NCBI GenBank assembly: GCA_039889245.1
Contig: JAZGVH010000002.1
Location: 3,162,001-3,226,000, forward strand
Source: Dermatophilaceae bacterium Soc4.6
Lineage (GTDB): Bacteria > Actinomycetota > Actinomycetes > Actinomycetales > Dermatophilaceae
Direction: 5' to 3'
DNA length: 64,000 nt
Part shown: one piece after another, positions 2,886 to 36,202 of the stretch
Layout: each line of letters begins with the position of its first letter
Position numbering within the stretch: position 1 is the stretch's first letter
The notes under the pieces: model-generated
The model's input: the letters and a program-made list of their open reading frames with translations, nothing else
The model's database searches: none
Told to the model about the DNA's origin: nothing
Made by a program: the position numbers and the translations under genes

Positions 2886-4913
2886 TCACCCGGCGCGCAG
2901 CTGCGGCACGGCGCAGGAGCGCCCGCGCAACCACTCCGTGACGTCCGCGGCCGGCATCGGGTGCGCGATGTACCAGCCCTGCACGCCGTCGCAGCCGAGC
3001 GACTCGAGCATCCGCAGCTCGTCGGCGGTCTCGACGCCCTCGGCGATGGAGCGCATCCCGAGCGCCTGAGCGAGGTCGACCAGCGCCCGGACGATACCCA
3101 CGGCGCGGTCGCCCTGCGACATCGCGGAGATGAACCCCCGGTCGATCTTGATCTCGTCGACCGGCAGCGAGCTCAGGCGCAGCAGCGACGAGTAGCCCGT
3201 GCCGAAGTCGTCGAGGCTGATCGACACGCCCAGGTCGCGCAGTGTGGCCAGGTTGCGCTTCACGTCCTCCACGGCGTGGGTCACGATGCGCTCGGTGATC
3301 TCGAGCTGCAGCATGCCCGGCGGCAGATCGTGCTGGAGCAGACCGCGGGCCACCACCCGGGGAAGCTCCGACCCGGTCAGGTCGGTGGGCGCGACGTTCA
3401 CAGCAACCTGGACGGTCATGCCGGCGTCGCGCCAGCAGGCGATCTGGGCCAGGGCGAGGTCGACGACCCGCTCGGTGAGCAGAGGCATGATGCCCGACCC
3501 CTCGGCAAGCGGGATGAACTCGTCCGGCGGGACGAACCCGCGCACCGGGTGCCGCCAGCGCACCAGCGCCTCGACCCCGATCGGCGTCCCCCCGGCCGTC
3601 GACACCTTGGGCTGGTAGTGCAGCTCGAGCTCGTCGTCGGCGAGCGCCTGTCGCAGCTCGCCGAGGAGGGCGAGCGCGTCGGCGGAGTTGGTGTCCCGCG
3701 CGGGGGAGTACACCTCGAGGCGGGTGCGGCTCTCCTTGGCCGTGTACATCGCGACGTCGGCGCGCCGCAGCAGGGTGCCGCCGTCGGTGCCGTGCGCGGG
3801 ACACATCGCGATGCCCACCGACGCCTCGGCCTCCAGCGAGAGGCCGCCCACGTCGATCGAGTGGGAGACCGACAGGCAGACCCGCTCGGCGACCTCGCGT
3901 CCGCCCGCCTCGTCTGTGCCGTGGACGATGATGGCGAACTCGTCACCCCCGAGCCGCGCGACGAAGTCACCGGGCCGGACCCGCTCGGTCAGCCGGGTCG
4001 CGAACTCGACGAGCAGGGAGTCGCCGACCTGGTGGCCGAGCGTGTCGTTGACCCGCTTGAAGTCGTTCATGTCGATGAGCATCAGGGCGAAGGGGGTGCC
4101 GTCGCGCTCGTGCGTCACCAGGGCGTTGTCGAGCTCGAAGCGGAGCGTCTTGCGGTTGGGCAGGCCGGTCAGGTCGTCGTGCCCGGCCGCGTGCTCGCGC
4201 TGGAGGGACATCGACGCCGTGTAGTACAGCAGCAGCAGCGGGATGAGCAGCAGCGGCAGCATGAACCACGAGTGAATGGCCACGACGACGATGATCGGCG
4301 AGATCGCCATGACCGAGAGCGTCATCAGCGTCACGTGGGCCAGGTCGCTGAACAGCAGCACGCCCAGCGGGGCGAGGTAGGTGAGCACGCAGGAGACGAC
4401 GAGGGTGTTGACGACGTAGTAGACGACCCAGGCGAGCGGGACCCAGAGCCAGGCGTCGACCTGGAGCCTCGGCAGGGAGTGGTCGAGGCTGATCGGGCCG
4501 TGAACGGCCCAGATGGCGAGGTACGCCGCGCCGACGGACATGGCGTACTGCGCCGGGTTGAACAGGACCTTCCACCACTCCTTGCCCGCGCGCAGGTCGG
4601 CAGCGAGCGACGCGATGCCGACGCTGAGGATGGCCGGCCAGACCCCCCAGAGGAAGAGCATGCCGCACAGGAACGCGGTCGACATGACGACACCCTGGGG
4701 GTCGTGACCGCGGCCGGCCACGAGGGGGAGGAGCTCGAGGATGACGAGGAGCCCGGCGGTCATGAGGAAGGCCGCCGGCTGCTCGACCGAGCCCACGGTC
4801 GCGACGTGGTAGACCGCGAGCAGGATGAGAGCCCACCCGACGGGCACGCTCGCGTACCACGTCACGCTCGACAAGGTGAGCGCGCGGAGCGAGAACGCAC
4901 TGTTCCTGACCAA
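2886..4913 (-). CDS. Membrane diguanylate cyclase/phosphodiesterase (GGDEF-EAL)
   Basis: This 675-residue protein makes and degrades cyclic di-GMP. About seven hydrophobic segments fill residues 20-255. A GGDEF domain follows with the intact motif at 322-326 and an RPGD inhibitory site five residues before it, then an EAL domain with the catalytic Glu in GVEALVRWRHP (about 448), LEITERI, LDDFGTGYSS, IKIDRGFI and AEGVET. Both catalytic centres therefore look intact, so the net activity cannot be predicted. I chose a TTG start (complement of 4911-4913) because AGGAGG (complement of 4919-4924) sits five bases upstream and the frame before it has no better start. The frame stays open for a further 270 codons upstream, but that part is antisense to the PAP2 gene. 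It looks monocistronic. Confidence 0.9.
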   Translation of the reverse strand: MVRNSAFSLRALTLSSVTWYASVPVGWALILLAVYHVATVGSVEQPAAFLMTAGLLVILELLPLVAGRGHDPQGVVMSTAFLCGMLFLWGVWPAILSVGIASLAADLRAGKEWWKVLFNPAQYAMSVGAAYLAIWAVHGPISLDHSLPRLQVDAWLWVPLAWVVYYVVNTLVVSCVLTYLAPLGVLLFSDLAHVTLMTLSVMAISPIIVVVAIHSWFMLPLLLIPLLLLYYTASMSLQREHAAGHDDLTGLPNRKTLRFELDNALVTHERDGTPFALMLIDMNDFKRVNDTLGHQVGDSLLVEFATRLTERVRPGDFVARLGGDEFAIIVHGTDEAGGREVAERVCLSVSHSIDVGGLSLEAEASVGIAMCPAHGTDGGTLLRRADVAMYTAKESRTRLEVYSPARDTNSADALALLGELRQALADDELELHYQPKVSTAGGTPIGVEALVRWRHPVRGFVPPDEFIPLAEGSGIMPLLTERVVDLALAQIACWRDAGMTVQVAVNVAPTDLTGSELPRVVARGLLQHDLPPGMLQLEITERIVTHAVEDVKRNLATLRDLGVSISLDDFGTGYSSLLRLSSLPVDEIKIDRGFISAMSQGDRAVGIVRALVDLAQALGMRSIAEGVETADELRMLESLGCDGVQGWYIAHPMPAADVTEWLRGRSCAVPQLRAG

Positions 4914-17662: not shown

Positions 17663-17811
17663 CACCCACAAGCGTACGGCGACCCCCCTCTCCCGTCCGG
17701 TGCGTAGGACGCCGGACGAGGAGAGGTGCGCGACGTCACAGCCTGACGCCGTCAGGCTCCTGGCACCGCCCACGGCGGACGGCCGCACGCTGCATGCGGG
17801 AGAATGGGGGC
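17663..17811. promoter_or_regulatory. Divergent menF/menG promoter region
   Basis: This 149 bp interval separates the divergent starts of menF and menG. TACGCT faces menF (complement of 17671-17676) and GAGAAT faces menG (17800-17805), each 6-8 bases before its start codon, so both transcripts may be leaderless. No shared operator dyad is visible. Confidence 0.4.
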
Positions 17812-18510
17812 ATGAGCCGCGCCAGCCTGGACAAGCAGCCCGCCGAGGTCGCCACGATGTTCGACGGGGTCGCCGAGAAGTACGACCTGACCAACGACGT
17901 GCTGTCGCTCGGCCAGGACCGCGCCTGGCGCCGCGCCACCGTCGCTGCGGTCGAGGCCCGCCCCGGCCAGACGGTGCTCGACATCGCGGCCGGCACGGGC
18001 ACGAGCTCGGAGCCCTTCGCCGACGCCGGTGTGCGGGTCGTGCCCGCCGACTTCTCGGTGGGGATGCTGCGCGTCGGCCACCGGCGCCGCCCCGACCTCG
18101 CCTTCACCGCCGCCGACGCGATGCGGCTGCCCTTCGCCGACGACTCCTTCGACGCCGTGACCATGTCGTTCGGCCTGCGCAACGTCTCCGACATGCAGGC
18201 CGCGCTCGCCGAGTTCCTCCGGGTGACGAAGCCGGGCGGGCGCCTGGTCGTGTGCGAGTTCAGTGCCCCGACCAACCCGGCCTTCCGCACCGTCTACACC
18301 AACTACCTCATGCGCGCGCTGCCGCCGATCGCCCGGCGCACCTCGAGCAACCCCGACTCCTACGTCTACCTCGCCGAGTCGATCCGGGCCTGGCCGGCGC
18401 AGCGCGAGCTCGCCGAGTCGATCGCCGCGACCGGCTGGGGCGAGGTCACCTGGCGCAACCTCACGGGCGGGATCGTCGCGCTGCACCGGGCCACCAAGCC
18501 GCTCGCCTGA
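17812..18510 (+). CDS. menG: Demethylmenaquinone methyltransferase MenG
   Basis: A 232-residue SAM methyltransferase of the UbiE/MenG family; it C-methylates demethylmenaquinone in the last headgroup step. It has [20 protein letters not shown], the SAM loop [10 protein letters not shown] at 55-64, [19 protein letters not shown] and VCEFSAP. The ATG at 17812 is preferred over the in-frame ATG at 17794 because the family begins near [10 protein letters not shown] and because a -10-like GAGAAT lies six bases before it. It is followed by the menJ promoter. Confidence 0.93.
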
Positions 18511-18550
18511 GCGGCTCCATCCGCACTCCGGCAGGGGGCCGGCCCCGCAA

Positions 18551-18579
18551 CTGACACCTCCCGCGCACGGGCTTAGACT
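18551..18579 (+). promoter_or_regulatory. Sigma-70-type promoter of menJ (CTGACA-N17-TAGACT)
   Basis: CTGACA at 18551-18556 and TAGACT at 18574-18579 are separated by exactly 17 bases, an unusually good housekeeping promoter for such GC-rich DNA. Transcription would begin near 18586, about 45 bases before the menJ ATG at 18631. The Rex-type dyad begins immediately downstream. Confidence 0.7.
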
Positions 18580-18590
18580 CGTCCAGACGT

Positions 18591-18608
18591 TCGTGAAGAT
18601 CTTCACAA
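18591..18608. promoter_or_regulatory. Predicted Rex operator (ROP) over the menJ transcription start
   Basis: The 18 bases match the published actinobacterial Rex consensus TTGTGAA-N4-TTCACAA at 13 of 14 defined positions; only the second base differs (C for T). The central 14 bases GTGAAGATCTTCAC are a perfect palindrome. The site starts 12 bases after the -10 element, where a bound repressor would block initiation. Rex senses NADH/NAD+, and complex I genes are known Rex targets in Streptomyces, so the site fits the following menJ and nuo genes. Confidence 0.75.
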
Positions 18609-18630
18609 GCAGCGAAGGCACCCCCCGACG

Positions 18631-19947
18631 ATGACCACCAGCACCCGCTCAGGCACCCCCGGCCCGACCTCCACGCAGGGACCGAGCGCCGACGTGATCG
18701 TGGTCGGTGCCGGCCCCGGGGGCAGCGCCACCGCTGCCTACCTGGCCGACCACGGCCTCGACGTGGTGCTCCTCGAGAAGTCGACCTTCCCCCGCGACAA
18801 GATCTGCGGCGACGGACTGACCCCGCGGGCCACCAAGGAGCTGACCTCGCTCGGTGTCGACACCAGCGACTGGCAGCGCACGGCCGGCCTGCGGATCAAG
18901 GGCGGCGGGCACACCCTGCAGCTCGACTGGCCGCAGACCTCGACCTTCCCCGGCCACGGCTTGGTGCGCACCCGCGCGATGCTCGACGAGACCCTCGCGC
19001 GGCACGCGGAGCACAAGGGCGCCCTGCTCCAGGAGCGCACCAGCGTCACGGCGCCGGTCCGCGACCCCGGTGGCCGGGTCACCGGCGTCACGGCCAAGCG
19101 GCTCGACGAGCGCGGCCGCGACACCGGCGAGACGATCACCTACCGCGCCCCCGTCGTGGTGGCCAGCGACGGCGTCTCCTCCCGCCTCGCGACCTCCGTC
19201 GGCCGCCCCAAGCGCGACGACCGCGTGATGGGCGTCGCCGTCCGTGCCTACTACCGCACGCCGCGCCGCGACGACTTCATGGAGAGCCACCTGGAGCTCT
19301 GGACCCGCGACGACAGCGGCAAGCGCATCCTGATGCCCGGCTACGGCTGGCTCTTCCCCCTCGAGGACGGCCGCACCAACGTCGGCCTGGGCACCCTCGA
19401 CACCACCTCGGCCTTCCGCAAGACCGACTTCAAGGACGTCATGCGGCGCTGGGTCGCCGACATCGACGCCGACTGGCACCTCGAGCACGACGAGTCGGCC
19501 GGTCCCATCCGGGGCGCCGCCCTGCCCATGGGCTTCAACCGCACCCCGCTGTATGCCGACGGCCTCGTCCTCGTCGGCGACGCCGGTGGCATGGTCAACC
19601 CCTTCAACGGCGAGGGCATCGACTACGCCCTCGAGGCAGCCCGCATCGGGGCCGAGGTCATCGCGCAGGCCCTGGCCCGCCCGAGCGACGCCCAGCGCGA
19701 GCGGGTGCTCGCGGGCTACCCGCGGGCGATGAAGGACGAGCTGGGCGGCTACTTCACGCTCGGCCGCTGGTTCGCCCACGCGATCGGGCAGCCCGAGATC
19801 ATGCGCCTGGCCACGAAGTACGGCCTGCCGCGCACGACGATGATGCGCTTCCTGCTCAAGGTGATGGCCAACCTGCCCGAGCAGCGCGGCGGCCGGGTCG
19901 GCGACCGCCTCATCCACGCGATGTCGTCGATCGCCCCCGACGCGTGA
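18631..19947 (+). CDS. menJ: Geranylgeranyl reductase family flavoprotein, MenJ-like
   Basis: A 438-residue FAD-dependent reductase. After about 20 low-complexity residues it has DVIVVGAGPGGSATAAYLA (dinucleotide loop at 26-31), FPRDKICGDGLTPRA, a family signature, and GDAGGMVNPFNGEGIDYALE, the second FAD motif. In mycobacteria the orthologue MenJ saturates one isoprene unit of menaquinone and lies beside a polyprenyl synthase; here menG is upstream and complex I plus a polyprenyl synthase are downstream, so the same role is likely. The ATG at 18631 follows the predicted Rex operator by 22 bases. Membrane association would be peripheral. Confidence 0.88.
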   Translation: MTTSTRSGTPGPTSTQGPSADVIVVGAGPGGSATAAYLADHGLDVVLLEKSTFPRDKICGDGLTPRATKELTSLGVDTSDWQRTAGLRIKGGGHTLQLDWPQTSTFPGHGLVRTRAMLDETLARHAEHKGALLQERTSVTAPVRDPGGRVTGVTAKRLDERGRDTGETITYRAPVVVASDGVSSRLATSVGRPKRDDRVMGVAVRAYYRTPRRDDFMESHLELWTRDDSGKRILMPGYGWLFPLEDGRTNVGLGTLDTTSAFRKTDFKDVMRRWVADIDADWHLEHDESAGPIRGAALPMGFNRTPLYADGLVLVGDAGGMVNPFNGEGIDYALEAARIGAEVIAQALARPSDAQRERVLAGYPRAMKDELGGYFTLGRWFAHAIGQPEIMRLATKYGLPRTTMMRFLLKVMANLPEQRGGRVGDRLIHAMSSIAPDA

Positions 19948-19990
19948 ACGCCCCCACCCCCGGGGCGCAGCGCCCGTTCCGCGAGCCCCC

Positions 19991-19996
19991 TAGGAT
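19991..19996 (+). promoter_or_regulatory. Possible -10 element (TAGGAT) for the nuo operon
   Basis: TAGGAT is the best -10 candidate in the 130 bp between menJ and nuoA; no -35 match is seen at 17 bases. A small hairpin, GGGCG-CAG-CGCCC at 19963-19975, lies before it and might be a weak terminator for menJ. No second Rex site is visible here, so nuo control by Rex would need read-through from the menJ promoter. Confidence 0.35.
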
Positions 19997-20077
19997 GGGG
20001 TCGCTCGACCGGAACCAGTCCCCAGATCTATCCGCGGCGCCCCGAGCGCGACGACCCGGATGCCAGAGAGGCACGCG

Positions 20078-20440
20078 ATGACCAACGAGTGGATCCCGCT
20101 CCTGTTCCTGCTGGCCCTCGGCTTCGGCTTCGCCCTCCTGTCGGTCGGCACCAGCCTCGTCGTCGGCCCGAAGCGCTACAACCGCGCCAAGCTCGAGGCC
20201 TACGAGTGCGGCATCCAGCCGACCCCGCAGGCCGTCGGCGGCGGTCGCGTGCCGATCAAGTACTACATCACGGCGATGTTGTTCATCGTCTTCGACGTGG
20301 AGAGCATCTTCCTCTATCCGTTCGCCGTGGCGTTCAACCAGCTGGGACTGTTCGCGCTCGTCGAGATGGTCCTGTTCATCCTCACCGTGTTCGTCGCCTA
20401 CGCCTACGTCTGGCGTCGGGGCGGGCTGGACTGGGACTAG
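20078..20440 (+). CDS. nuoA: NADH-quinone oxidoreductase subunit A
   Basis: A 120-residue membrane subunit of complex I with three helices. Family motifs are [39 protein letters not shown] and [10 protein letters not shown], including the loop Cys next to the quinone channel. The ATG at 20078 follows AGAGAGG by six bases; the upstream ATG at 20060 would put the ribosome-binding site inside the gene. First gene of a 14-gene operon. Confidence 0.96.
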
Positions 20441-20449
20441 GAGAAACAC

Positions 20450-21004
20450 ATGGGAATCGAAGAGAAGCTGCCGGCAGGTTTCCTGCTCACCTCGATCGAG
20501 AACCTCGCCGGCTACATGCGCAAGACGTCCATGTGGCCCGCGACCTTCGGTCTGGCCTGCTGTGCCATCGAGATGATGGCGGTCGGCACCCCCGACTACG
20601 ACATCGCCCGCTTCGGTATGGAGCGCTTCGCCGCGACTCCGCGCCAGGCCGACCTGATGATCGTGGCCGGACGGGTGAGCCAGAAGATGGCGCCGGTCGT
20701 GCGCCAGGTCTACGACCAGATGAGCGAGCCCAAGTGGGTCATCTCGATGGGTGTCTGCGCGAGCTCGGGCGGCATGTTCAACAACTACGCCATCGTCCAG
20801 GGCGTCGACCACATCATCCCGGTCGACATCTACCTTCCGGGCTGCCCGCCGCGCCCGCAGATGCTGCTCAACGCGATCCTCACGCTGCACGACGAGATCC
20901 TCAAGATGCCGCTCGGGGTCGACCGGGTCACGGCGGCCCAGGCGGCCGAGGCCGCCGCCATGGCCGCCACCCCGACCCATGCCATGAAGGGGCTGCTCGC
21001 CTGA
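20450..21004 (+). CDS. nuoB: NADH-quinone oxidoreductase subunit B
   Basis: A 184-residue subunit holding the terminal 4Fe-4S cluster N2 that hands electrons to quinone. All four ligands are visible: Cys37-Cys38 in [10 protein letters not shown], Cys103 in GVCASSGG and Cys132 in PGCPPRP. It lies 9 bp after nuoA with GGAGAAAC as ribosome-binding site, and its stop overlaps nuoC by one base. The paralogue at 54124 is about 110 residues longer. Confidence 0.97.
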
Positions 21005-21758
21005 TGGCCGACGACACCAGCCCCGGCATCCCCGGCACGGAGGCGGCGCAGGAGCACGGCGACGTCGTCGTGCGTCGACGGGACGTCGACACGACCCCGG
21101 TCGTGATCGCCGAGCGCGACGGCATGTTCGGCGCGACCCAGGGCGCCGACACGACCGGCTACGGCGGTCTCAAGACCCCCGTGCTCCTCCCCGGGGCCAC
21201 GGCCCGGCCCTACGGCGGCTGGTTCGACGAGGCGGCCGACGCCCTCGAGCGGGCCCTCGTCGGCGGCAGCGCCTCGATGGCCGAGGCCATCGAGCGGGTG
21301 GTCGTCGACCGCGGTGAGATGACGCTCTTCGTGCGCCGCGAGCACCTCCTCGAGGTCGCCCGCACGCTGCGCAACGACCCGGCCCTCCGGTTCGAGATCT
21401 GCACCGGTGTCTCTGGGGTCAACTATCCCGACGAGACCGGCCGCGAGCTGCACGCGGTCTACCACCTCCTGTCGATCACCAACGGCAGCAAGCGGATCCG
21501 CGTCGAGGTCACCTGCCCCGACGCCGATCCGCACATCCCGTCGGTGGTCGAGGTCTATCCCGCCAACGACTGGCACGAACGTGAGACGTGGGACATGTTC
21601 GGCATCCAGTTCGACGGCCACCCTGCGCTGACCCGCATCCTGATGCCCGACGACTGGCCGGGACACCCGCAGCGCAAGGACTACCCCCTCGGCGGGATCC
21701 CCGTCGAGTACAAGGGCGCCACCATCCCACCGCCCGACCAGCGGAGGTCGTACTCCTG

Positions 21759-21759
<1 letters not shown>
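21004..21759 (+). CDS. nuoC: NADH-quinone oxidoreductase subunit C
   Basis: A 251-residue hydrophilic subunit of the connecting module. The first 90 residues are a variable acidic leader; the core contains [21 protein letters not shown] and [17 protein letters not shown], the standard NuoC signature. It is separate from NuoD, unlike the fused CD protein of enterobacteria. Starts at ATG 21004, sharing one base with the nuoB stop. Confidence 0.96.
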
Positions 21760-23110
<1,351 letters not shown>

Positions 23111-23111
<1 letters not shown>

Positions 23112-23932
23112 TGTCCACCAGTCACGACCTGTCCGCTCCGCAGACCGCTGCCGGCCACCTGACCGTCAGCGAGGAGAGCCGGGCCCCCTACCCCGCGCAG
23201 GTCGAGGCGCAGCTGCGCGCCGACGCCGCACTGGTGATCGCGCGCTACCCCGTGGCCCGCTCGGCGCTGCTGCCGCTGCTGCACCTCGTGCAGAGCATCG
23301 ACGGCTACGTCTCCGGCCGCGGGATCGCGCTCTGCGCCGAGCTGCTCGACCTCGAGACCGCCGAGGTCAGCGGGGTCGCGACCTTCTACACCCAGTACAA
23401 ACGCCACCCCAACGGCGAGTTCACCGTCGGCGTCTGCACCAACACGCTGTGCGCGATCATGGGTGGCGACCTCATCTGGGAGTCGGTCAGCGAGCACCTC
23501 GGCATCGGGCACGACGAGACGACCGCCGACGGCAAGATCACCCTCGAGCGCGTCGAGTGCAACGCCGCCTGTGACTACGCCCCCGTCGTCATGGCCAACT
23601 GGGAGTTCTTCGACAACCAGTCGCCGGCGTCGACCAGGCAGCTGGTCGACGACCTGCGGGCCGGCAAGACGGTGCGCCCGACGCGCGGCCCGAGCCGGGT
23701 CTGCTCCTTCAAGCAGGTCTCGCGCGTGCTCGCCGGCTTCCCCGACGGCCTCGCCGACGAGGGTGTCGGCGCCGGTCCGGCCTCGCTCGAGGGCCTCGGC
23801 GTGGCCAAGGCCAACGGCTGGCGCGCTCCCGGCGAGGACAGCGCGACCGGCGACACCCCCAGCAACGCCCCCGACGAGGCGCCCGGCGATTCGACTGCCC
23901 GTTCGGGCAAGGACAAGGAGGCGGGGCTGTGA
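23111..23932 (+). CDS. nuoE: NADH-quinone oxidoreductase subunit E
   Basis: A 273-residue thioredoxin-like 2Fe-2S subunit of the NADH module. The ligands are Cys109 and Cys114 (GVCTNTLCAIMGG) and Cys150 and Cys154 (VECNAACDYAP). A Ser/Ala/Pro-rich C-terminal tail of about 60 residues (ending GKDKEAGL) is not part of the common core. It overlaps nuoD by one base and nuoF by four. Confidence 0.96.
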
Positions 23933-25257
23933 GCACCGCACTGACCCCGATCCTCACGAAGTTCTGGGACCACCCCCAGTCGTGGACCCTCGCGACCTAC
24001 GAGGACAATGAGGGCTACCAGGGCCTGAAGAAGGCCCTGGGCATGTCCCAGGCCGACCTGGTGACGATGACCAAGGAGTCGGGCCTGCGTGGCCGCGGAG
24101 GCGCCGGCTTCCCCACCGGCATGAAGTGGGGCTTCCTGCCCCCGCCCGACGGCGGCCCCCGCTACCTCGTGGTCAACGCCGACGAGTCCGAGCCGGGCAC
24201 CTGCAAGGACACGCCGCTGATGATGGCGGCCCCGCACTTCCTCATCGAGGGCATGGCCATCACGTCGTACGCCATCGGCTGCACGCACGCCTTCATCTAC
24301 CTGCGCGGCGAGATCGTGCACGTCTACCGCCGGCTCATGCGCGCCGTCGAGGAGGCGTATGCCGCAGGCCACCTCGGCACGAACATCCACGGCTCGGGCT
24401 TCGACCTCGACATCACCGTGCACGCCGGCGCCGGCGCCTACATCTGCGGTGAGGAGACGGCGCTGCTCGACTCGCTCGAGGGTCGTCGCGGTCAACCGCG
24501 TCTCAAGCCCCCGTTCCCGGCCGTGGCCGGCCTCTACGCGCGACCCACCGTCGTCAACAACGTCGAGAGCATCGCGTCGGTCCCGCCGATCCTGCTCCAC
24601 GGCTCCGAGTGGTTCAAGGCGATGGGCACCGAGAAGTCCACCGGCTTCGGCATCTTCAGCCTCTCCGGCCACGTCACGAGGCCCGGGCAGTACGAGGCCC
24701 CGCTCGGCATCACCCTGCGTGAGCTGCTCGAGATGGCGGGCGGGATGCGCGGCGGCAAGGATCTGAAGTTCTGGACGCCGGGCGGCTCGTCCACCCCGCT
24801 GTTCACCGACGAGCACCTCGACGTGCCCCTCGACTTCGAGTCGGTGGGTGCGGCCGGCTCGATGCTCGGCACCCGGGCCCTGCAGATCTTCGACACCACG
24901 ACCTGCGTCGTGCGCGCCGTCGAGCGCTGGACCGACTTCTACAAGCACGAGTCGTGCGGCAAGTGCACCCCGTGTCGCGAAGGCACGTGGTGGCTCGCGC
25001 AGATCCTCGAGCGCCTCGAGCACGGCCCGGCCGGCGCGGCCACCGAGGCCGACTTCGACAAGCTGCTCGACATCTGCGACAACATCCTGGGTCGGTCGTT
25101 CTGTGCCCTGGGTGACGGCGCGACGTCACCGATCACGAGCAGCATCCAGTACTTCCGCGACGAGTTCCGCGACCACCTGTCGGTCGACGGCTGCCCGTTC
25201 GACCGCGACGCGTCGTCGTACTTCGCCGACGCCACGAAGGAGTCAGCGTCCGCATGA
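23929..25257 (+). CDS. nuoF: NADH-quinone oxidoreductase subunit F
   Basis: A 442-residue NADH-oxidising subunit. [16 protein letters not shown] and [14 protein letters not shown] form the FMN and NADH sites; [19 protein letters not shown] follows; the 4Fe-4S cluster N3 is held by Cys343, Cys346 and Cys349 ([10 protein letters not shown]) and Cys392. The GTG start at 23929 overlaps nuoE by 4 bp, and GAGGCGGGG lies just upstream. Complete and apparently functional. Confidence 0.96.
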
Positions 25258-27797
25258 CCACCACCCCCACGACCCCGGCCGTCGGCCCGACGACCAACAG
25301 CCCGGCGTCGGGCGGCAACTCGGTGAGCACCGGCGGCAACGCCTCGGTGCCCGCTGCCGTCGACGGGGTCAGCCTGACCATCGACGGGATAGCGGTCTCG
25401 GTGCCCAAGGGCACCCTGGTCATCCGAGCGGCCGAAGAGGTCGGGGTGGCGATCCCCCGGTTCTGCGACCACCCGCTGCTCGAGCCGGTCGGCGCCTGCC
25501 GACAGTGCCTCGTCGACATCGCGACCCCCGGCCCGGACGGCTCCTTCCGCCCGATGCCGAAGCCGCAGGCCTCCTGCACGATCACCGTGACCGAGGGCAT
25601 GCGGGTCAACACCCAGCACACCTCCGCGGTGGCCGACAAGGCCCAGCACGGTCAGATGGAGTTCCTGCTCATCAACCACCCGCTCGACTGCCCCGTCTGC
25701 GACAAGGGTGGCGAGTGTCCCCTGCAGAACCAGGCGATGAGCAACGGTCGCGCCGTGTCCCGCTTCGAGGACGTCAAGCGCACTTACCCCAAGCCGATCA
25801 ACATCTCCAGCCAGGTGCTGCTCGACCGCGAGCGCTGCATCCTCTGCGCCCGGTGCACCCGCTTCTCCGACCAGATCGCCGGCGACCCGTTCATCGCGCT
25901 CGTCGAGCGCGGTGCCCTCCAGCAGGTGGGTATCTACCAGGAGCAGCCGTTCGAGTCGTACTTCTCCGGCAACACCGTGCAGATCTGCCCGGTGGGTGCG
26001 CTGACCGGGGCGGCCTACCGCTTCCGCTCGCGTCCCTTCGACCTGATCTCCACGCCCACGGTCTGCGACGGCTGCGCCTCCGGGTGCGCCATCCGCACCG
26101 ACCACCGTCGCGGGGTCGTCCTGCGACGGATGGCGGCCAACGACCCGGCGGTCAACGAGGAGTGGAACTGCGACAAGGGCCGGTGGGCCTTCACCTGGCC
26201 GACCCTCGCCGACCGGCTCACCACCCCGCTGGTGCGCGACGAGTCAGGCGAGCTGCGCGCCGCCGGCTGGCCCGAGGCCCTCGAGGTCGCCGCTGCCGGC
26301 CTGCGCAAGGCCCGCGCCGCGGCCGTGCTCGTCGGCGGTCGCGCAACCGCCGAGGACGCCTACGCCTACGGCAAGTTCGCACGAATCGCGTTGCAGACCA
26401 ACGACATCGACTTCCGTGCCCGGCCCCACTCGGCCGAGGAGGCCGACTTCCTGGCCGCGCGCGTCGTCTCGACGGGCCCCGGTGGGGGAGGCGTGACCTA
26501 CGCCGACCTGGAGGCCGCCCGTGCTGTGCTCCTCGTCGGCTTCGAGCCCGAGGACGAGTCACCCATCGTGTTCCTGCGGCTGCGCAAGGCCGTCCGCAAG
26601 ACCGGCGCGTCGGTCGCCTCCGTGGCCCCGTACGCCAGCCGTGGCCTGCGCAAGCTCTCCGGCCTGCTGCTCCCCACCGCCCCGGGGCAGGAGGCCGCGA
26701 CCCTGCGCGCGCTCGGTGACACCGACGCCGGTCGCGCCCTGGAGACCAGCCTCGCCGACGGCGGCATCGTCCTCGTGGGCGAGCGGCTGGCCTCCGTGCC
26801 CGGTGCGCTGACCGCCGCCGCCGCCCTGGCCGACCGCACGGGAGCCCGGCTCGCCTGGGTCCCGCGCCGAGCGGGGGAGCGTGGGGCGCTCGAGTCCGGC
26901 GCGCTCGGCTCGCTGCTGCCGGGCGGACGCCCGGTTGCCGACCCGGTGGCCCGGGCCGAGGTCGCCGAGGTCTGGGACAGCGTCGGTCTGCCCGACGCTC
27001 CGGCGCGTGACACCGCCGCGATCGTCGAGGCCGCCTGCAGCGGCGCGATCGGAGCCCTCGTCGTCGCGGGCGTCGACCCGGTCGACCTCGCGCTGCCGGG
27101 CGTCGAGGAGGCGCTGGCCAAGACCTTCGTCGTCTCGCTCGAGGTGCGCGAGTCGGCCGTGACCCGCGTCGCCGACGTCGTCCTGCCTGTCGCCCCGCCG
27201 TCGGAGAAGGTCGGCACCTTCGTCGACTGGGAGGGTCGACTACGACCCTTCGAGGCAGCCCTCCACACCAACGCGATGAGCGACCACCGGGTGCTCGACA
27301 TGCTCGCCGCCGAGCTCGGGATCTTCCTCGAGACCAAGACCCAGGCCCAGATCCACGCCCAGTACGAAGAGCTGGGCCCTTGGGCCGGCGCGCGACCCAC
27401 CCTCACCGACGCGCACGTGCCGACGCCCCCGGTGGTGCCCGGACAGCTCGTCCTCGCCACCTGGGCCCCGCTGCTCGACAAGGGCCGGATGCAGGACGGC
27501 GAGCCCTACCTCGCCGGCACCGCGCCCGTCGCGGTCCTGCGGATCGGCCCGGCCGATGCTGGGCGTCTGGGTGTCGGCGACGGCGCCCCCGTCACCGTCA
27601 CGACCGCGCGCGGCTCCGTCCGGGTGCCCGCGCTGGTGACCCCCGACCTGCTCGAGGGGGTCGTCTGGCTCCCGACCAACTCCGAGGGCTGCGACGTCCG
27701 CGGTAGCCTCGGTGCGCTCGCGGGTGACCCGGTCACGGTGTCACCCGTCGTCTCCACGGTCAGTCGCCCGCTCGCTGCTTCGGAAGGTGCCCGCTGA
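25254..27797 (+). CDS. nuoG: NADH-quinone oxidoreductase subunit G
   Basis: A large 847-residue iron-sulfur subunit. After a Thr/Ser/Gly-rich leader of 35 residues come a 2Fe-2S ferredoxin domain ([20 protein letters not shown]), the His/Cys N5-type region ([15 protein letters not shown]), a 4Fe-4S pair ([14 protein letters not shown], then QICPVGALT), and a molybdopterin-oxidoreductase-like domain that in complex I no longer binds a metal. [10 protein letters not shown] holds the extra cluster N7 ligands found in several bacteria. ATGA overlap with nuoF. Confidence 0.96.
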
Positions 27798-29227
27798 TGT
27801 CCACGTTCGCCTCGCTGGTCGGCGAGGTCCAGGCTGTCGCTGCCGCCGTCCCTGCCATCGACAACCCCTCCGCCGACTTCAGCGACACCCCGTGGTGGCT
27901 GTCGCTGATCAAGGTCCTGATGGCCTTCGTCTACCTCCTGCTGAGCACGCTGCTCGTCATCTGGTTCGAGCGTCGCGTCATCGGGCGCATGCAGCAGCGT
28001 CCCGGGCCCAACCGGGCCGGCCCCTTCGGCCTTCTCCAGACCCTGGCCGACGGCGCCAAGCTGATGCTCAAGGAAGACGTCACCCCGGCTGCCGCGGACA
28101 AGTTCGTCTTCACCCTGGCCCCGCTGATCTCGGCGACCATGGCCTTCGTGTCGTTCGCGATCATCCCCTTCGGGGACGAGGTCACGATGTTCGGCCACAG
28201 GACCCCGCTCCAGATCACCGACATGCCGGTCGCCGTGCTGCTCGTGCTCGCGGTCGCCTCGGTCGGTGTCTACGGCATCGTCCTCGCCGGCTGGTCGTCC
28301 GGCTCGACCTACCCGCTGCTCGGTGGGCTGCGCTCGACCGCCCAGGTCATCTCGTACGAGATCGCGATGGGCCTGGCCCTCGTGGCCGTCTTCATCTACA
28401 GCGGCTCGATGTCGACCTCGCAGATCGTGGCCGGCCAGGAGCGCCTCTGGTACTTCATCCCCGCCTTCTTCTCCTTCGCCGTCTACGTCGTGACGATGTT
28501 CGGCGAGACCAACCGCCTGCCCTTCGACCTCGCCGAGGGCGAGGGTGAGCTCACCGGTGGCTTCCACACCGAGTACTCCTCGATGCGCTTCGCGATGTTC
28601 TTCCTCGGCGAGTACATCAACATGTTCGTCGTGGCCGCCCTCGCCACCACCGTCTTCCTCGGTGGCTGGATGGCCCCCCCGTTCGTCGCCATGATCAACG
28701 GTGGCATGTTCAACCACGGCTGGTGGGGCGTGCTCTGGTTCACGGCCAAGCTGTGGTTCTTCATCTGGGGCTTCGTCTGGGTGCGAGGGTCGCTGCCGCG
28801 AGTGCGCTACGACCAGTTCATGCGCTTCGGCTGGAAGTTCCTCATCCCCTCCACGCTCGTGTGGGTCGTGGCCGTGGCCTTCATCCGCGGCTCGCAGAAC
28901 GGATGGTTCGGTGACGGTAAGGTCGGCCTGCTCGGCCGCCAGTTCCCCGTACCCACCCTGGTGCTCGTCGGGGTCATCGCGGTGGTGGCGCTGGCGGTGG
29001 CCTGGGTCTACGACAACAAGCGCGCCGACGAGGAGGAGCGGTCCGCCGCCGAGCGGTTCCCCGCCGAGATCGACCCCTTCGCCGGCGGCTACCCGGTGCC
29101 GCCGCTGCCCGGGCAGCGACTGCGGGAGCCGGACCGCATCCCCGAGCCCGTGGGCGCCCCCGCCAGTCTCACCACCATCCCGGGCGACATCCCCGCCTCA
29201 ACCGTGAAGGAGGACGCTCGTGGCTGA
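27797..29227 (+). CDS. nuoH: NADH-quinone oxidoreductase subunit H
   Basis: A 476-residue membrane subunit that forms the quinone chamber. It has [48 protein letters not shown] and the conserved [17 protein letters not shown] hydrophilic C-terminal tail of about 80 residues is longer than in Escherichia coli. Its stop overlaps nuoI by eight bases. Compared with NuoH2 (55553) the acidic loop after [11 protein letters not shown] is fully conserved. Confidence 0.97.
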
Positions 29228-30032
29228 CGACGCCACCACTGCGCCCACCGGAAGCTCCCTGCCCCCCGTGCCGCGCCCGTCCAGTCCGGCGCGCCCGGCC
29301 AGCGGGTCGAGCGAGCGGCCTACGCCGAGCGAGCAGCCCAAGTGGTACGCCCCCGTAGGCGGCTTCGGGGTGACGTTCGCGACGCAGTTCCGCACGGTGC
29401 TGACCGAGGAGTACCCCGAGAAGCCACGGGCCACCGCGCCGCGGTTCCACGGTCGCCACCAGCTCAACCGCCACCCCGACGGTCTCGAGAAGTGCATCGG
29501 TTGCGAGCTCTGCGCGTGGGCCTGCCCGGCCGACGCGATCCTCGTCGAGGGCGCGAGCAACGACGACACCGCGATCAGCGAGGGGGGCACCGGTCGCTTC
29601 TCGCCCGGTGAGCGCTTCGGCCGCGTCTACCAGATCAACTACCTGCGCTGCATCTTCTGCGGGCTCTGCATCGAGGCCTGCCCGACCCGGGCCCTGACGA
29701 TGACCAACGACTACGAGCTGGCCGACAACAACCGGGCCGACCTGATCTTCACCAAGGACATGCTGCTCGCCCCGATGCAGCAGGGCATGCTGCCCTCGCC
29801 GCACCCGATGGTCGAGGGCATGGAGGAGCGCGACTACTACCTCGGCAAGGTCAGCGGAGCCACCAGCGCCCAGCGCGAGTGGGCGACGGAGCACGAGGCC
29901 GAGGTCGACTCGATCCGCCCCGAGAAGTACGCCCAGCCGCCACTGCGGGGCGGGGCCCGACTGCGGGCCGGTGCCAAGATCGGCCAGCCGACGACCGCCC
30001 CGTCGACCGCCGAGCCGGAGGGCACCCGATGA
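29220..30032 (+). CDS. nuoI: NADH-quinone oxidoreductase subunit I
   Basis: A 270-residue subunit with two 4Fe-4S clusters (N6a, N6b): Cys92, 95, 98 and 102 in [12 protein letters not shown], and Cys144, 147, 150 and 154 in [12 protein letters not shown]. The N-terminal 40 residues are Ser/Pro-rich and variable; the tail after 200 is basic. GTG start at 29220, with AAGGAGG seven bases before it inside the end of nuoH. Confidence 0.96.
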
Positions 30033-30808
30033 CCGGCACCGGCGAGGCGATCGCCTTCTGGATCCTCGGCATCCTCATGGTCGCCGCCTCGCTCGGGCTG
30101 GTGTTCGCCCGCAAGGCGGTGCACGCCGCCCTGTGCATGGCGTTCGTCATGGTCAACCTGGGCGTCCTCTACATCATGGAGCAGGCCCAGTTCCTCGGCA
30201 TCGTGCAGATCTTCGTCTACACCGGCGCCGTGATGATGCTCTTCCTCTTCGTGCTGATGCTCGTCGGCGTCGACTCGGCCGACTCGGTGGTCGAGACCAT
30301 CCGCGGTCAGCGCTTCTGGGGCTGGGTGCTCTCGCTCGGCCTCGCGGGCGTCATGCTCTCGGCGCTCGGCAGCCTCACGCTCCCGGCCACGGTGGGGCTC
30401 GAGGCGGTCAACGCGGGCGCTGACGGCAGCGGCAACGTGTCGGGGGTGGCGCAGCTGATCTTCGGCAAGTACGTCTGGGCCTTCGAGATCACCTCGGCCC
30501 TGCTGATCACCGCTGCCATCGGGGCGATGGTGCTCGCGCACCGTGAGCGCCTCACGGCCAAGATCACCCAGCGCGAGTGGGCCGAGCGCAGGGTCCGCGA
30601 GAACCAGTACGTCGCCGGTCTTCCGGCGCCCGGTGTCTACGCCCGGCACAACGCCGTCGACACCCCGGCCCTGCTCCCCGACGGCACCCCCAGTGAGCTG
30701 TCCGTCTCGCGGGTGCTCGTCTCCCGCAACCAGGTCGCCCGTCCCGAGCGCTACAAGTCGCTGGAGCAGGCCATCGAGGTCGAGATCGAGGAGGGCAGCA
30801 CCCGATGA
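30029..30808 (+). CDS. nuoJ: NADH-quinone oxidoreductase subunit J
   Basis: A 259-residue membrane subunit with five helices; the pi-bulge helix reads [20 protein letters not shown]. The last 90 residues are hydrophilic and longer than the family average. ATG at 30029 overlaps the nuoI stop by 4 bp, and its own stop overlaps nuoK by 4 bp. Confidence 0.95.
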
Positions 30809-31104
30809 GCCTCGTCTACTACGTCTACCTCTCGGCGATCCTCTTCTCGATCGGTGGTGCCGTGGTGCTGCTGCGCCGCAACGCCATCATCGTGTTCATG
30901 GGGGTCGAGCTGATGCTCAACGCCACCAACCTGGCCTTCGTCACCTTCGCGCGCGTCCACGGCACCCTCGACGGCCAGGTCATCGCCCTGTTCGTCATGG
31001 TCGTCGCGGCCGCCGAGGTCGTGGTGGGCCTGGCCATCATCATGGCGATCTTCCGCGCCCGCCGGTCGGCCTCGGTCGACGATGCCAACCTCTTGAAGCT
31101 TTAG
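30805..31104 (+). CDS. nuoK: NADH-quinone oxidoreductase subunit K
   Basis: A 99-residue membrane subunit with three helices. The two proton-path glutamates are present, in [11 protein letters not shown] and in [12 protein letters not shown]. Standard length for the family. Followed 12 bp later by nuoL with AGGAGCG in between. Confidence 0.96.
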
Positions 31105-31116
31105 GAGCGCCGAGGC

Positions 31117-33027
31117 TTGACTACTCTCACCGCGACAGGCGCGACATCGTACGCCTGGCTGCTCGTCGTGCTGCCGGCGCTCGGCGCCGCCGTGCTCCTC
31201 CTCGGGGGAAAGCGCACCGACAAGTTCGGCCCGCTGCTGGCGACCGCGCTGTCCTGGGCCTCGTTCGTCGTCGGGCTGCTCGTGGTCATCGCCATGGTGG
31301 GCCGCGCCGATGACCAGCGCGCGATGCACCTGCACCTCTTCCCGTGGTTCAGCGTGGGCTCGTTCACCCTCGACGCGGGGCAGCTGCTCGACCCACTGTC
31401 GATGGTCTTCGTCCTGCTCATCACCTTCGTCGGCTCCCTCATCCACGTCTACTCCCTCGGCTACATGGAGCACGACCCCGCCAAGCGGAGGTTCTTCGCC
31501 TACCTCAACCTGTTCGTGGCCGCGATGCTGCTGCTGGTCACGGCCGACAGCTACCTCCTGCTCTACGTCGGCTGGGAGGGCGTGGGCCTCGCGTCCTGGC
31601 TGCTGATCGGGTTCTGGAACCACAACCCGGCCTATGCCACGGCGGCCAACAAGGCCTTCGTGGCCAACCGGGTCGGCGACCTCGGGCTGTCGATCGCGAT
31701 CATGATCATGTTCTTCCAGTTCGGGCACGTCGACTTCGCGTCGGTGTTCGCCGGGGCGGCCGGCGGCGCGAGCCAGCCCGCGCTGACGGCCATCGGCCTG
31801 ATGCTGCTGCTGGGCGCCTGCGGCAAGTCGGCGCAGTTGCCCCTGCAGAGCTGGCTGGGTGACGCGATGGCCGGTCCGACGCCCGTGTCGGCGCTCATCC
31901 ACGCGGCGACCATGGTCACCGCGGGCGTCTACCTCGTCGTGCGCAGCCACGTGATCTTCGAGGGCGCGCCGACCGCGCAGCTGCTCGTCGTCATCGTGGG
32001 CGCCATCACCCTGGTCTTCGGCGCGATCGTCGGCTGCGCCAAGGACGACATGAAGAAGGCCCTGGCCGCCTCGACCATGAGCCAGATCGGCTACATGATG
32101 CTCGCGGCCGGGCTCGGCCCGGTGGGCTACGCCTTCGCCATCGCTCACCTGCTCACCCACGGCTTCTTCAAGGCGGGGATGTTCCTCGGCGCCGGCTCGG
32201 TCATGCACGGCATGAACGACCAGGTCGACATGCGCCGGTTCGGCGGGCTGTTCTCGAGCATGCGGGTCACCGCCGTGACCTTCGGGCTCGGCTTCCTCGC
32301 GATCATCGGCTTCCCCTTCCTCTCCGGCTTCTACACCAAGGACGGCATCATCGAGGCCGCCTTCGTCGGTGAGGGCTGGCGGCCCTGGGTCTTCGGGCTC
32401 GCCGCCATGCTCGGGGCCGGGGTGACCGCGTTCTACATGTCGCGGCTCTACTTCATGACCTTCCTCGGCAAGAAGCGGTGGACCGACGACGTGCACCCGC
32501 ACGAGTCACCCCTGACCATGACGATCCCCATGATGGTGCTGGCGGTCGGCTCGGTCGGGCTCGGTGCCGCCCTCGTGCCGACCGGCCTGATCAAGTCCTG
32601 GCTCGACCCGACCCTGGGCGTGGCCGAGGGCACGGAGGAGAACCCCGTGCTCGCCCCGCTGCTGATCACCGCCCTGACGATGGTGCTCCTCGTCGCGGGG
32701 GTCGCGCTGGCCTACCTGCGCTACTGGCGGGACGCCGTGCCGGTCGAGGCGCCGCGGGGGAGCCTGGTCACCCAGGCCGCCCGCCGCGACCTCTACCAGG
32801 ACGCCGTCAACGAGGGCGTGCTCATGCGCCCCGGCATCCACCTGACCCGCTCGCTCGTCTTCACCGACAGCCGCGGGATCGACGGTGCGGCCGGTGGCCT
32901 CGCCGCCATGATCGGCGGCGCCTCGGCCCGCGTGCGCAAGCTCCAGAACGGCTATGTCCGTTCGTATGCCCTGACGATGCTCGCCGGTGTCGTCGTCGTC
33001 CTCGGAGCCCTGTGGGTGATTCAGTGA
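31117..33027 (+). CDS. nuoL: NADH-quinone oxidoreductase subunit L
   Basis: A 636-residue antiporter-like subunit. The key residues are visible: Glu in [20 protein letters not shown] and Lys in [19 protein letters not shown], with [18 protein letters not shown] after it. The C-terminal part carries the amphipathic lateral helix region. The start is TTG at 31117 ([10 protein letters not shown] read as Met-Thr-Thr), nine bases after AGGAG. Complete. Confidence 0.95.
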
Positions 33028-34580
33028 TGTCCGCCTTTCCCTACCTCACCGTCATGGGGGCCCTACCCCTGGTGGGATCGGCCGTCGTGCTCCTGCTGCC
33101 GGCCTCCCTGGCGGCACGGGCCAAGCAGGTCGCTCTGGGCTTCTCGCTGGTGACGCTCGTCGTCGGCGTCGTGGCCGCACTGCAGTTCAAGACCAGCGGC
33201 ACGACGGGCCAGTTCCAGCTGATGGAGCAGCACGGGTGGATCCCGCAGTTCGGGGTGAGCTACGCCCTCGGGGTCGACGGCATCGCCCTCGCCCTGATCC
33301 TCATGTCGGTGATCCTCACACCGATCTGCCTGCTCGCGGCCTTCCGTGACCTGCCCGAGGACGAGCAGGGCACCTCGCGCGAGAAGACCTACTTCGCACT
33401 GATGCTCGTGCTCGAGACCTTCATGATCGGCGTCTTCGCGGCCACCGACGTCTTCCTGTTCTACGTCTTCTTCGAGGCCATGCTCATCCCGGTCTACTTC
33501 CTCATCGGGCGCTTCGGTGGGGCCCGTCGGCAGTATGCCGCGGTCAAGTTCCTGCTCTTCTCGCTCCTCGGCGGCCTGGTCATGCTGGCCGCGGTCATCG
33601 GGCTCTACGTGCAGGGTCCCGGCGGCACCGAGGGCTTCCTGGTCGAGAAGCTCACCGGGCTGCCGCTGTCGGTCGACACCGGCCGCTGGCTCTTCGTCGG
33701 CTTCTTCTTCGCCTTCGCGGTCAAGGCCCCGATGTTCCCGGTCCACACCTGGCTGCCGGATGCCGCAACCGAGGCGCGCCCGGCCACGGCGACCCTGCTC
33801 GTGGGCGTGCTCGACAAGGTCGGCACCTACGGCATGCTGCGCTTCTGCCTGCAGATGTTCCCCGAGGCCAGCAGGTGGGCGACCCCGGTCGTCATCGTCC
33901 TCGCCGTCGTCTCCGTGCTCTACGGCGCGCTGCTGGCCATCGGCCAGACCGACGTCATGCGGCTGATCTCCTACACCTCGATCAGCCACTTCGGCTTCAT
34001 CGTGCTGGGCATCTTCGCCATGACGTCGACCGGCGCCTCCGGGGCCACGCTCTACATGGTCAACCACGGCTTCACGACCGCCGCGCTCTTCCTCTTCGCC
34101 GGCATGCTGGTCAGCCGCCGCGGCAGCAAGCGCATCGAGGACTACGGCGGCTGGCAGCGGATCACCCCGGTGCTGGCCGGGTCCTTCCTCATCGCCGGGC
34201 TGTCCGGTCTCGCGCTGCCCGGGATGGGGGCGTTCCTCGCCGAGTTCACCACGCTCGTCGGCATCTTCCAGCGCTATCCCGCGCCGGCCATCGTCGCGAC
34301 CTTCGGCATCATCCTGGCCGCGCTCTACATCCTGCTGATGTACAAGAAGATGATGACCGGGCCCAAGCCCGAGGGGCTCGACTCCACCCCCGACCTCGGG
34401 ATGCGTGAGAAGTGGGTCGTGGCCCCGCTCATCGCCCTCTTCCTCGTGCTCGGCTTCTATCCCAAGCCGGTGAACGACATCGTCAACCCGGCCGTCACCA
34501 CGACCCTGAGCTATGTCGGGGTCACCGACCCGAAGCCCGTCGTGCCTGTCGCCGACCTGGTGCAAGGAGCTTCCAAGTGA
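33027..34580 (+). CDS. nuoM: NADH-quinone oxidoreductase subunit M
   Basis: A 517-residue antiporter-like subunit. VFLFYVFFEAMLIPVYFLIGRFGG holds the conserved Glu, and AFAVKAPMFPVHTWLPDAATEA the conserved Lys. ATG at 33027 shares one base with the nuoL stop. Typical length of 500-520 residues. Confidence 0.96.
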   Translation: MSAFPYLTVMGALPLVGSAVVLLLPASLAARAKQVALGFSLVTLVVGVVAALQFKTSGTTGQFQLMEQHGWIPQFGVSYALGVDGIALALILMSVILTPICLLAAFRDLPEDEQGTSREKTYFALMLVLETFMIGVFAATDVFLFYVFFEAMLIPVYFLIGRFGGARRQYAAVKFLLFSLLGGLVMLAAVIGLYVQGPGGTEGFLVEKLTGLPLSVDTGRWLFVGFFFAFAVKAPMFPVHTWLPDAATEARPATATLLVGVLDKVGTYGMLRFCLQMFPEASRWATPVVIVLAVVSVLYGALLAIGQTDVMRLISYTSISHFGFIVLGIFAMTSTGASGATLYMVNHGFTTAALFLFAGMLVSRRGSKRIEDYGGWQRITPVLAGSFLIAGLSGLALPGMGAFLAEFTTLVGIFQRYPAPAIVATFGIILAALYILLMYKKMMTGPKPEGLDSTPDLGMREKWVVAPLIALFLVLGFYPKPVNDIVNPAVTTTLSYVGVTDPKPVVPVADLVQGASK

Positions 34581-36202
34581 CCCCCGCCCTCGTGACCGTG
34601 CTCACGACAGCCCCCCTGGCGCCCGGCGACTTCCCGCGGGCGTCGCTCGACTACGGCGCCCTGGCCCCGGTGCTCGTCATCTCGGGGGCGGCGCTGCTCG
34701 GGGTGCTCGTCGAGGCCTTCGTGCCCCGCCGCAGCCGGTATGCCGTGCAGGTGGGGCTCGCGCTGCTCGGCCTCGTCGCCGCCTTCGTCGTGCTCGTCGT
34801 CGTCTCGGTCGACCACCAGACCGCGACCGCCGGGCTGAAGTCGGCTGGGGGAGCAGTGCTCGGCTCGGTCATCATCGACGGCCCTGCGCTCTTCCTGCAA
34901 GGCGCGATCCTCGTCTTCGCGGTGCTCGGGGTGCTGACGATGGCCGAGCGTCTCGGTGGCACCGGCTCCGACGCCTTCACACCGGTGGGTTCGACCACGC
35001 CGGGCTCGGCCGGTGAGGCCCTGGCCGAGAAGGCCGGGGCGATGACCTCCGAGGTCTTCCCCCTCACCCTCTTCGCCGTCGTCGGCATGATGCTCTTCCC
35101 GGCGGCCGGTGACCTGCTGACGATGTTCATCGCCCTCGAGGTGCTGTCGCTGCCGCTCTACATCCTGACCGGCCTGGCTCGTCGCCGTCGCCTGCTGTCG
35201 CAGGAGGCCTCGCTGAAGTACTTCCTGCTGGGCGCCTTCTCGTCGGCCTTCTTCCTCTTCGGCTCGGCGCTGCTCTTCGGCTACTCCGGGTCGGTCTACC
35301 TTCCGGAGATCGCGGCGGCCATCAGCGCTGGTGGCTCGCCGATGCAGGGTCTGCTGGTGCCCGGCGTCGCCCTCGTGGCCATGGGCCTGCTCTTCAAGGT
35401 CGGCGCGGTGCCGTTCCACTCGTGGACGCCCGACGTCTACCAGGGAGCGCCCACCCCGGTCACCGGGTTCATGGCGGCGGCGACCAAGCTGGCCGCCTTC
35501 GGAGCCATCCTGCGCCTGTTCTACGTCGGCATCGCCGGTGACCGGTGGACGTGGACGCCGGCCGTGGCCGTCATCGCCCTGCTCACCATGGTGGTCGGCG
35601 CCGTCCTGTCGGTGACGCAGACCGACGTCAAGCGCCTCCTGGCCTACTCGTCCATCGCGCACGCCGGCTTCATCCTGGTCGGGGTCCTGGCCTTCGACCG
35701 GGTGGGCATCAGCGGTGTGATGTTCTACCTCGTCGCCTACGGTCTGGCCACGATCGCGGCCTTCGCCATCGTCGGTCTCGTGCGGGCCGACGGGGCCGAG
35801 GCGACCCACCTGTCCCAGTGGGCCGGGCTGGGCAAGCGCCACCCGTGGACGTCGGCGGTCTTCGCGTTCCTGCTGCTGGCCTTCGCCGGTATCCCGCTCA
35901 CCTCCGGGTTCACGGCGAAGTTCGCCGTGTTCGCGCCCGCCCTGCGCTCCGGCGGCATCGGCACCACGCTGGTGATCGTGGGTCTGCTCAGCAGCGCCAT
36001 CACCGTCTTCGTCTACGTGCGGGTCATCGTGCTGATGTACTTCACCGACTCGACCGGCGACAGCGCCAACGTCGCCGTCGTCACCCCGTCGGCGATGACG
36101 ACCGTGGCGATCACCTTCGGCGCCCTGCTCACGCTGGTCCTCGGGGTCTTCCCCTCCCAGCTGCTCCAGCTCGCCTCCGACGCCTCGCTGTTCGTTCGTT
36201 GA
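34577..36202 (+). CDS. nuoN: NADH-quinone oxidoreductase subunit N
   Basis: A 541-residue antiporter-like subunit. MFIALEVLSLPLYILTGL carries the conserved Glu; LFKVGAVPFHSWTPDVYQGAP the conserved Lys. The GTG start at 34577 overlaps nuoM by 4 bp and follows CAAGGAG. Last subunit of the operon; the polyprenyl synthase follows after 16 bp, so it is probably co-transcribed. Confidence 0.96.
   Translation: MTPALVTVLTTAPLAPGDFPRASLDYGALAPVLVISGAALLGVLVEAFVPRRSRYAVQVGLALLGLVAAFVVLVVVSVDHQTATAGLKSAGGAVLGSVIIDGPALFLQGAILVFAVLGVLTMAERLGGTGSDAFTPVGSTTPGSAGEALAEKAGAMTSEVFPLTLFAVVGMMLFPAAGDLLTMFIALEVLSLPLYILTGLARRRRLLSQEASLKYFLLGAFSSAFFLFGSALLFGYSGSVYLPEIAAAISAGGSPMQGLLVPGVALVAMGLLFKVGAVPFHSWTPDVYQGAPTPVTGFMAAATKLAAFGAILRLFYVGIAGDRWTWTPAVAVIALLTMVVGAVLSVTQTDVKRLLAYSSIAHAGFILVGVLAFDRVGISGVMFYLVAYGLATIAAFAIVGLVRADGAEATHLSQWAGLGKRHPWTSAVFAFLLLAFAGIPLTSGFTAKFAVFAPALRSGGIGTTLVIVGLLSSAITVFVYVRVIVLMYFTDSTGDSANVAVVTPSAMTTVAITFGALLTLVLGVFPSQLLQLASDASLFVR

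Follow-up and report, generated by a model that had tools for sequence, protein, structure and literature searches.

A predicted Rex operator ahead of the menJ-nuo genes in Dermatophilaceae bacterium Soc4.6 and its distribution among Actinomycetota

In this study, we asked which regulator reads an 18 bp palindromic site lying between a predicted promoter (P1) and the menJ gene of Dermatophilaceae bacterium Soc4.6, where menJ heads the genes of respiratory complex I (nuo), and which of these genes the site serves. What is known of complex I regulation by Rex comes mainly from Streptomyces. All coordinates are positions in the window, the whole stretch of 64,000 nucleotides that was analysed (JAZGVH010000002.1, 3,162,001-3,226,000, forward strand). 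The gene order in the window is menD, the isochorismate synthase gene (menF), menG/ubiE, the site in question, menJ and nuo, and the features that matter here are as follows.

17812..18510, + strand: menG/ubiE, demethylmenaquinone methyltransferase (NF001241, 395.2 bits, cut-off 327; start codon picked by reading)
18551..18556, + strand: -35-like hexamer CTGACA of P1 (sequence, promoter scan)
18574..18579, + strand: -10-like hexamer TAGACT of P1 (sequence, promoter scan)
18591..18608, no strand assigned: predicted Rex operator TCGTGAAGATCTTCACAA (consensus match, genome scan, conservation)
18631..19947, + strand: "menJ", FAD protein of the geranylgeranyl reductase family, first gene behind the operator (TIGR02032, Pfam FAD_binding_3)
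19991..19996, + strand: -10-like hexamer TAGGAT of a second predicted promoter (P2), between menJ and nuoA (conservation)
20060..36202, + strand: nuo genes, complex I (family tests of nuoA, G, H, I, K, L, M and N)

The site, its promoter and the regulator

The initial annotation had described a promoter followed by an 18 bp site, and its coordinates, its consensus match and its palindrome were all verified. CTGACA and TAGACT are separated by 17 bases and TAGACT precedes TCGTGAAGATCTTCACAA by 11 bases, so placing the site directly behind the predicted promoter of the menJ-nuo genes. The 18-mer agrees with TTGTGAA-N4-TTCACAA at 13 of the 14 fixed positions (one mismatch), and its 14 bp core, GTGAAGATCTTCAC (18593-18606), is identical to its reverse complement. 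P1 was the sole sigma-70-like match of a promoter scan of 17700-20500, with 0.2 expected. Its transcription start would lie near 18586, about seven bases past the -10 element, and the operator would then span roughly +5 to +23; a comparable geometry is reported for the cydA1 operator of S. avermitilis, which lies downstream of the start with protection from -3 to +25 (PMC5355995, a source available to us in part, here and below).

The genome encodes the regulator on which the reading depends, so the lack of a rex gene, which the initial annotation had named as grounds for refutation, does not apply. The rex gene is found about 31 kb outside the window, followed by hemA, and appeared canonical by domain, equivalog and structure alignment: the protein matches PF06971 (E 1e-18), passes the Rex equivalog NF003992 with 344.8 against a cut-off of 226, and its residues 17-219 align to a solved Rex chain. 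The genome-wide scan for Rex sites that the initial annotation had proposed was run with the consensus pattern. Sites with one mismatch numbered three in the 4.8-Mb genome, against 0.016 expected from base composition, and they lie before rex (TTGTGCAGGCGTTCACAA), upstream of atpB for the ATP synthase A chain, and before menJ; the frame between operator and atpB, read as atpI, had no Pfam match. With up to three mismatches allowed, the genome held 12 sites against 4 for the reversed pattern, and the window held two matches against 0.15 in 100 dinucleotide shuffles, TCGTGAAGATCTTCACAA being the sole one-mismatch site among them. In S. avermitilis, footprinting has identified both rex and atp as targets of Rex (PMC5355995), and the rex-hem and atp operators described there resemble the sites found here before rex, which hemA follows, and upstream of atpB. 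The cydA1 gene of S. avermitilis also has a Rex operator (PMC5355995), unlike cydA in this genome, around which 4407 bases contained no operator with up to four mismatches.

The genome holds five bare GTGAA-N4-TTCAC palindromes including that of menJ, and the others were rejected as operators: three fall inside long open frames (L001, L003, L005), and one (L002) falls within the final codons of a gene for an MFS transporter. The frame behind this last site, read as sdhC, had no Pfam match.

Operator, rex and gene linkage in the surveyed genomes

An even draw of 196 genomes from the class contained a MenJ match in 136 and a Rex-domain match in 155. We took 140 menJ regions, three of which were dropped for want of upstream sequence, leaving 137 loci; a locus was called linked when a NuoA match followed menJ within about 1 kb, a link that a contig end can hide (G083, G019, L075). 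Related genomes are not independent in any of the counts given in this work. An operator with at most two mismatches preceded menJ in 93 of the 94 linked loci from rex-positive genomes (20 without mismatch, 31 with one, 42 with two), representing 48 of 49 genera and 22 of 22 families, and in none of 1880 shuffled upstream regions. The sole failure (G069), of the same family, has rex, linked genes and TAGACT, and no operator with up to four mismatches. Where menJ was not linked, the operator was found in only one of 37 rex-positive loci, namely G083, where a contig end truncates menJ. Among these 37 homologues, identity to the query is 50% or more in 22, including 18 Streptomyces-like ones; the other 15, at 35-46%, may be paralogues.

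The promoter element was conserved together with the operator. TA[GC][AG][ACT]T was found in the 40 bases preceding the operator at 86 of 94 linked loci, with 3.6 expected; by a stricter count, a -10 element was present in 79 of 93 loci against 36 of 1860 shuffles, and in 75 of the 79 it ended 8-17 bases before the operator. No -35 element stood out in a profile of 48 genera, and the CTGACA half of P1 is therefore the weaker one.

The arrangement extends to other classes. From an even phylum draw of 198 genomes, we took the best 40 of the 91 other-class genomes with a match (42-52% identity). Among these best 40, the operator was detected in 30 of 33 linked, rex-positive loci, and two of the three misses have a site with three mismatches; it was found in neither of two linked loci without a rex match, in one of two unlinked loci with rex and in none of three without. 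In the class draw, the corresponding loci without rex carried the operator in one of three linked cases and in none of three unlinked cases. The linked loci without a rex match thus amount to one operator in five over both draws, a figure that rests on few cases, some of them draft assemblies from which rex may be absent by chance. The carrier (G059) is itself a draft of 94% completeness whose congeners have rex. In family f74, the rex-bearing member has the operator and three members without rex lack it, a contrast confounded by linkage, as nuoA is not beside menJ in two of the three and is 579 bases away in the third.

A further set of 80 named loci, partly shared with the class draw, comprised the best matches to the query. 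In 77 of them nuoA follows menJ, and an operator with at most two mismatches precedes menJ in 67 of these 77, with four more showing a three-mismatch operator (L034, L054, L094, L096). Of the other linked loci, two have neither an operator with up to three mismatches before menJ nor a detected rex (L038, L069), three have rex and lack the operator (L039, L077, L089), and L068 has rex and two perfect operators 34 bases apart (4663-4714) between menJ and nuoA, with none before menJ. The remaining three of the 80 comprise a locus without upstream sequence (L070), one that stops at a contig end (L075) and one with no nuoA behind menJ (L084), the latter two showing no operator. A rex search in 16 named genomes recovered the gene in all eight operator carriers, L034 with its three-mismatch site included, and in five of eight exceptions.

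Taken with the sites at rex and the ATP synthase genes, this conservation in other families and classes supports the Rex reading of the initial annotation, and TCGTGAAGATCTTCACAA is very probably an operator read by Rex. The same survey overturns the claim that its place before menJ would be a new arrangement, as this form is commoner than any other among the sampled Actinomycetota, with that of Streptomyces being the exception. A literature search, covering its sources in part, returned no report of Rex before menJ, and the arrangement may already be catalogued. Rex regulons were reportedly analysed by comparative genomics by Ravcheev et al. in 2012, and a 2003 paper by Brekasis and Paget is said to bear on the Rex question.

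Some loci deviate in their details. The record of L068 is labelled Melainabacteria, yet its menJ is about 55% identical to that of the window. In family f44, outside the class, two Rex operators stand 30-36 bases apart before menJ (L317, L321, L322, L327). In G026 (C1:393404-394708; L218), the menJ with operator (L103) has an in-frame TGA in a six-frame match; a further copy of menJ at another place in the genome has neither nuo beside it nor an operator.

The Streptomyces form and the origin of the arrangement

For nuoA genes away from menJ, we examined 12 of the 18 Streptomyces-like genomes and some others; the label "Streptomyces-like" (f20/g26) is ours, resting partly on a single large genus and on the letters of the nuoA operator. 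Among rex-positive genomes with unlinked nuoA, an operator with at most two mismatches was found before nuoA, within 600 bases, in 15 of 16 examined, that is, the 12 Streptomyces-like genomes, G139, G041 and G018, with G027 lacking it. In all 15, a -10-like element precedes the operator by 8-17 bases; in the Streptomyces-like genomes this element is TAGGAT or TAAGAT, 15 bases ahead. The operator letters in seven of the 12 are exactly those footprinted in S. avermitilis, whose nuoA1-N1 genes, like the complex I genes here, have a Rex-type 18-mer; that operator lies before nuoA, from -42 to -16 of the start, and the one described here lies before menJ (PMC5355995).

In the 12 Streptomyces-like genomes, some 2-7 kb separate menJ from the start of nuoA. 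In the two such loci read closely, a gene on the opposite strand stands between them, and in the one locus scanned this gene was NlpC/P60 by Pfam. The menJ upstream regions inspected in five Streptomyces-like genomes carry the TAGACT element and no operator. Since unlinked menJ goes without the operator and unlinked nuoA keeps it, the Rex site goes with nuo.

Sharing of the operator between classes suggests, by parsimony, that the arrangement is old, and the menJ-first form looks ancestral with the Streptomyces form derived. We give somewhat better than even chances to a fuller account, in which an ancestral Rex promoter-operator (a TAGACT-like -10 element, mostly 8-17 bases, and the 18-mer) before menJ-nuo would predate the split of the sampled Actinomycetota classes and tie side-chain saturation and complex I to the NADH/NAD+ ratio. 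The nuoA operator of Streptomyces would then be the later state, an inserted NlpC/P60 gene having split menJ from nuo and left the operator with nuo and the menJ promoter without one. Should the menJ-first operator prove general in the phylum, Streptomyces would be the atypical model, a quinone-modifying enzyme and complex I would answer the same NADH signal in many actinobacteria, and a testable prediction would follow for every genome with rex and a menJ-nuo string. Natural experiments on the pairing of regulator and site are available in lineages that have lost rex or the operator, or have shifted the latter to nuoA.

A related gene order is known from Actinomyces oris, where ubiE-ggr-nuo likewise presents a menaquinone methyltransferase, a geranylgeranyl reductase and nuo (PMC5478893). 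Unlike the present locus with its Rex site, the part of that paper available to us contains no occurrence of "rex".

Genes served by the operator and alternative readings

The link to menaquinone maturation proposed in the initial annotation is carried by gene context and not by the dedicated family test. The menJ product exceeded the cut-off of the geranylgeranyl reductase family TIGR02032 (238.4 bits, cut-off 158.8) and scored 243.7 bits on the MenJ equivalog NF045655 (menaquinone reductase), below its cut-off of 700; a Streptomyces-like counterpart likewise remained under it with 244.5, and a 38%-identical relative from another family (L220) reached 574.2. A role of the gene in menaquinone maturation is thus argued from the adjoining menG/ubiE and the nearby menD and menF. 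Beside menF, the frame at 16052-16702 matches an F420-dependent LLM-class oxidoreductase (TIGR03560) over its first 83 residues only and may be a remnant.

Read-through from P1 into nuo, also suggested initially, is plausible, with the qualification that a conserved TAGGAT before nuoA suggests a further, Rex-free promoter. This hexamer occurs in 11 of the 13 menJ-nuoA gaps inspected, that of the window included; for the 98 linked gaps from the class draw, 0.9 occurrences of each hexamer were expected, and 19 gaps had TAGGAT and 13 had TAGACT. In three relatives (L021-L023), TTGTGACGCCGAGCACAA stands just upstream of TAGGAT, and L020 has a close form. The menJ-nuoA gap of the window contains no operator with up to four mismatches, and P2 was not flagged by the promoter scan of 17700-20500. 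In this lineage, a second promoter lacking a Rex site therefore probably serves nuo, and Rex control of nuo may be partial; menJ, before which P1 alone was found, should be chiefly controlled by Rex. In 22 operator-bearing, rex-positive loci of the class draw, menJ and nuoA lie no more than 60 bases apart, so that a second promoter would hardly fit between them. A search of 17700-20500 turned up no terminator-like site, which is weak evidence, as 0.4 was expected by chance and scanning also missed P2 and any menG promoter. Transcripts from menG may also run on into menJ.

Readings of the palindrome other than a Rex operator were considered against the same data. Regulators of the Crp/GlxR type recognize TGTGA-N6-TCACA, a consensus contained in that of Rex, and GTGA-N6-TCAC is indeed present in the operator; moreover, the genome site TTGTGATCGCGATCACAA, adjoining a phosphogluconate/dihydroxy-acid dehydratase gene, looks Crp-like, and the pckG sites of the family often hold the outer and not the inner bases. 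Yet the inner A..T, which Crp does not need, is kept in 93 of 96 GTGA-N6-TCAC matches before 97 linked menJ genes, the operator reads CGTGA in place of TGTGA, and the site is absent from four of the five linked loci without a rex match. Given this constraint on the inner bases, the site before menJ was rejected as Crp-type, and we regard a Crp/GlxR regulator as quite improbable. Still less credit is due to an RNA hairpin in the 5' leader acting as an attenuator: the palindrome is self-complementary and would lie in the predicted leader, but most positions of the two 7-mers hold and the four central bases vary, like sites precede rex and the ATP synthase genes, and the terminator search mentioned above, weak as it is, found no terminator-like site there.

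A different question is whether the operator exists for nuo alone, with menJ as a passenger first gene and no selected tie between menaquinone saturation and NADH. This view is compatible with the site being a Rex operator, and we place it a little short of even chances. It draws on the contrast already described, in which unlinked menJ has the operator in one of 37 loci, a contig-end case, and unlinked nuoA in 15 of 16. On the other hand, linkage with the operator before menJ persists across 22 families within the class and also in further classes, and co-expression of menJ and nuo may itself be useful.

The best explanation of the whole, in which we place high confidence, is that the 18-mer is a Rex operator behind the P1 start and that rising NADH frees menJ and, by read-through, nuo. 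Rex would bind just downstream of the P1 start and block RNA polymerase from starting or clearing; a rise in NADH, for example in oxygen shortage, would release it; and the freed promoter would supply menJ together with read-through nuo transcripts, whose products would speed the oxidation of NADH into the menaquinone pool. As nuo would be served by both P1 and the Rex-free P2, its control by Rex would be partial. The site, the rex gene, the further sites in the genome, the conservation and the linkage to nuo are observed, and we infer binding, start site, read-through and P2 activity, taking the direction of the Rex effect by analogy from Streptomyces.

The PEP carboxykinase gene pckG was tried as a further Rex target and rejected, since a site with at most two mismatches was present in only 8 of 30 family loci, that of the genome itself included, and many other loci of the family show Crp-like forms. 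The Rex/Crp-like palindrome before pckG (L011 1501-1518; L269-L298) is variably kept in the family.
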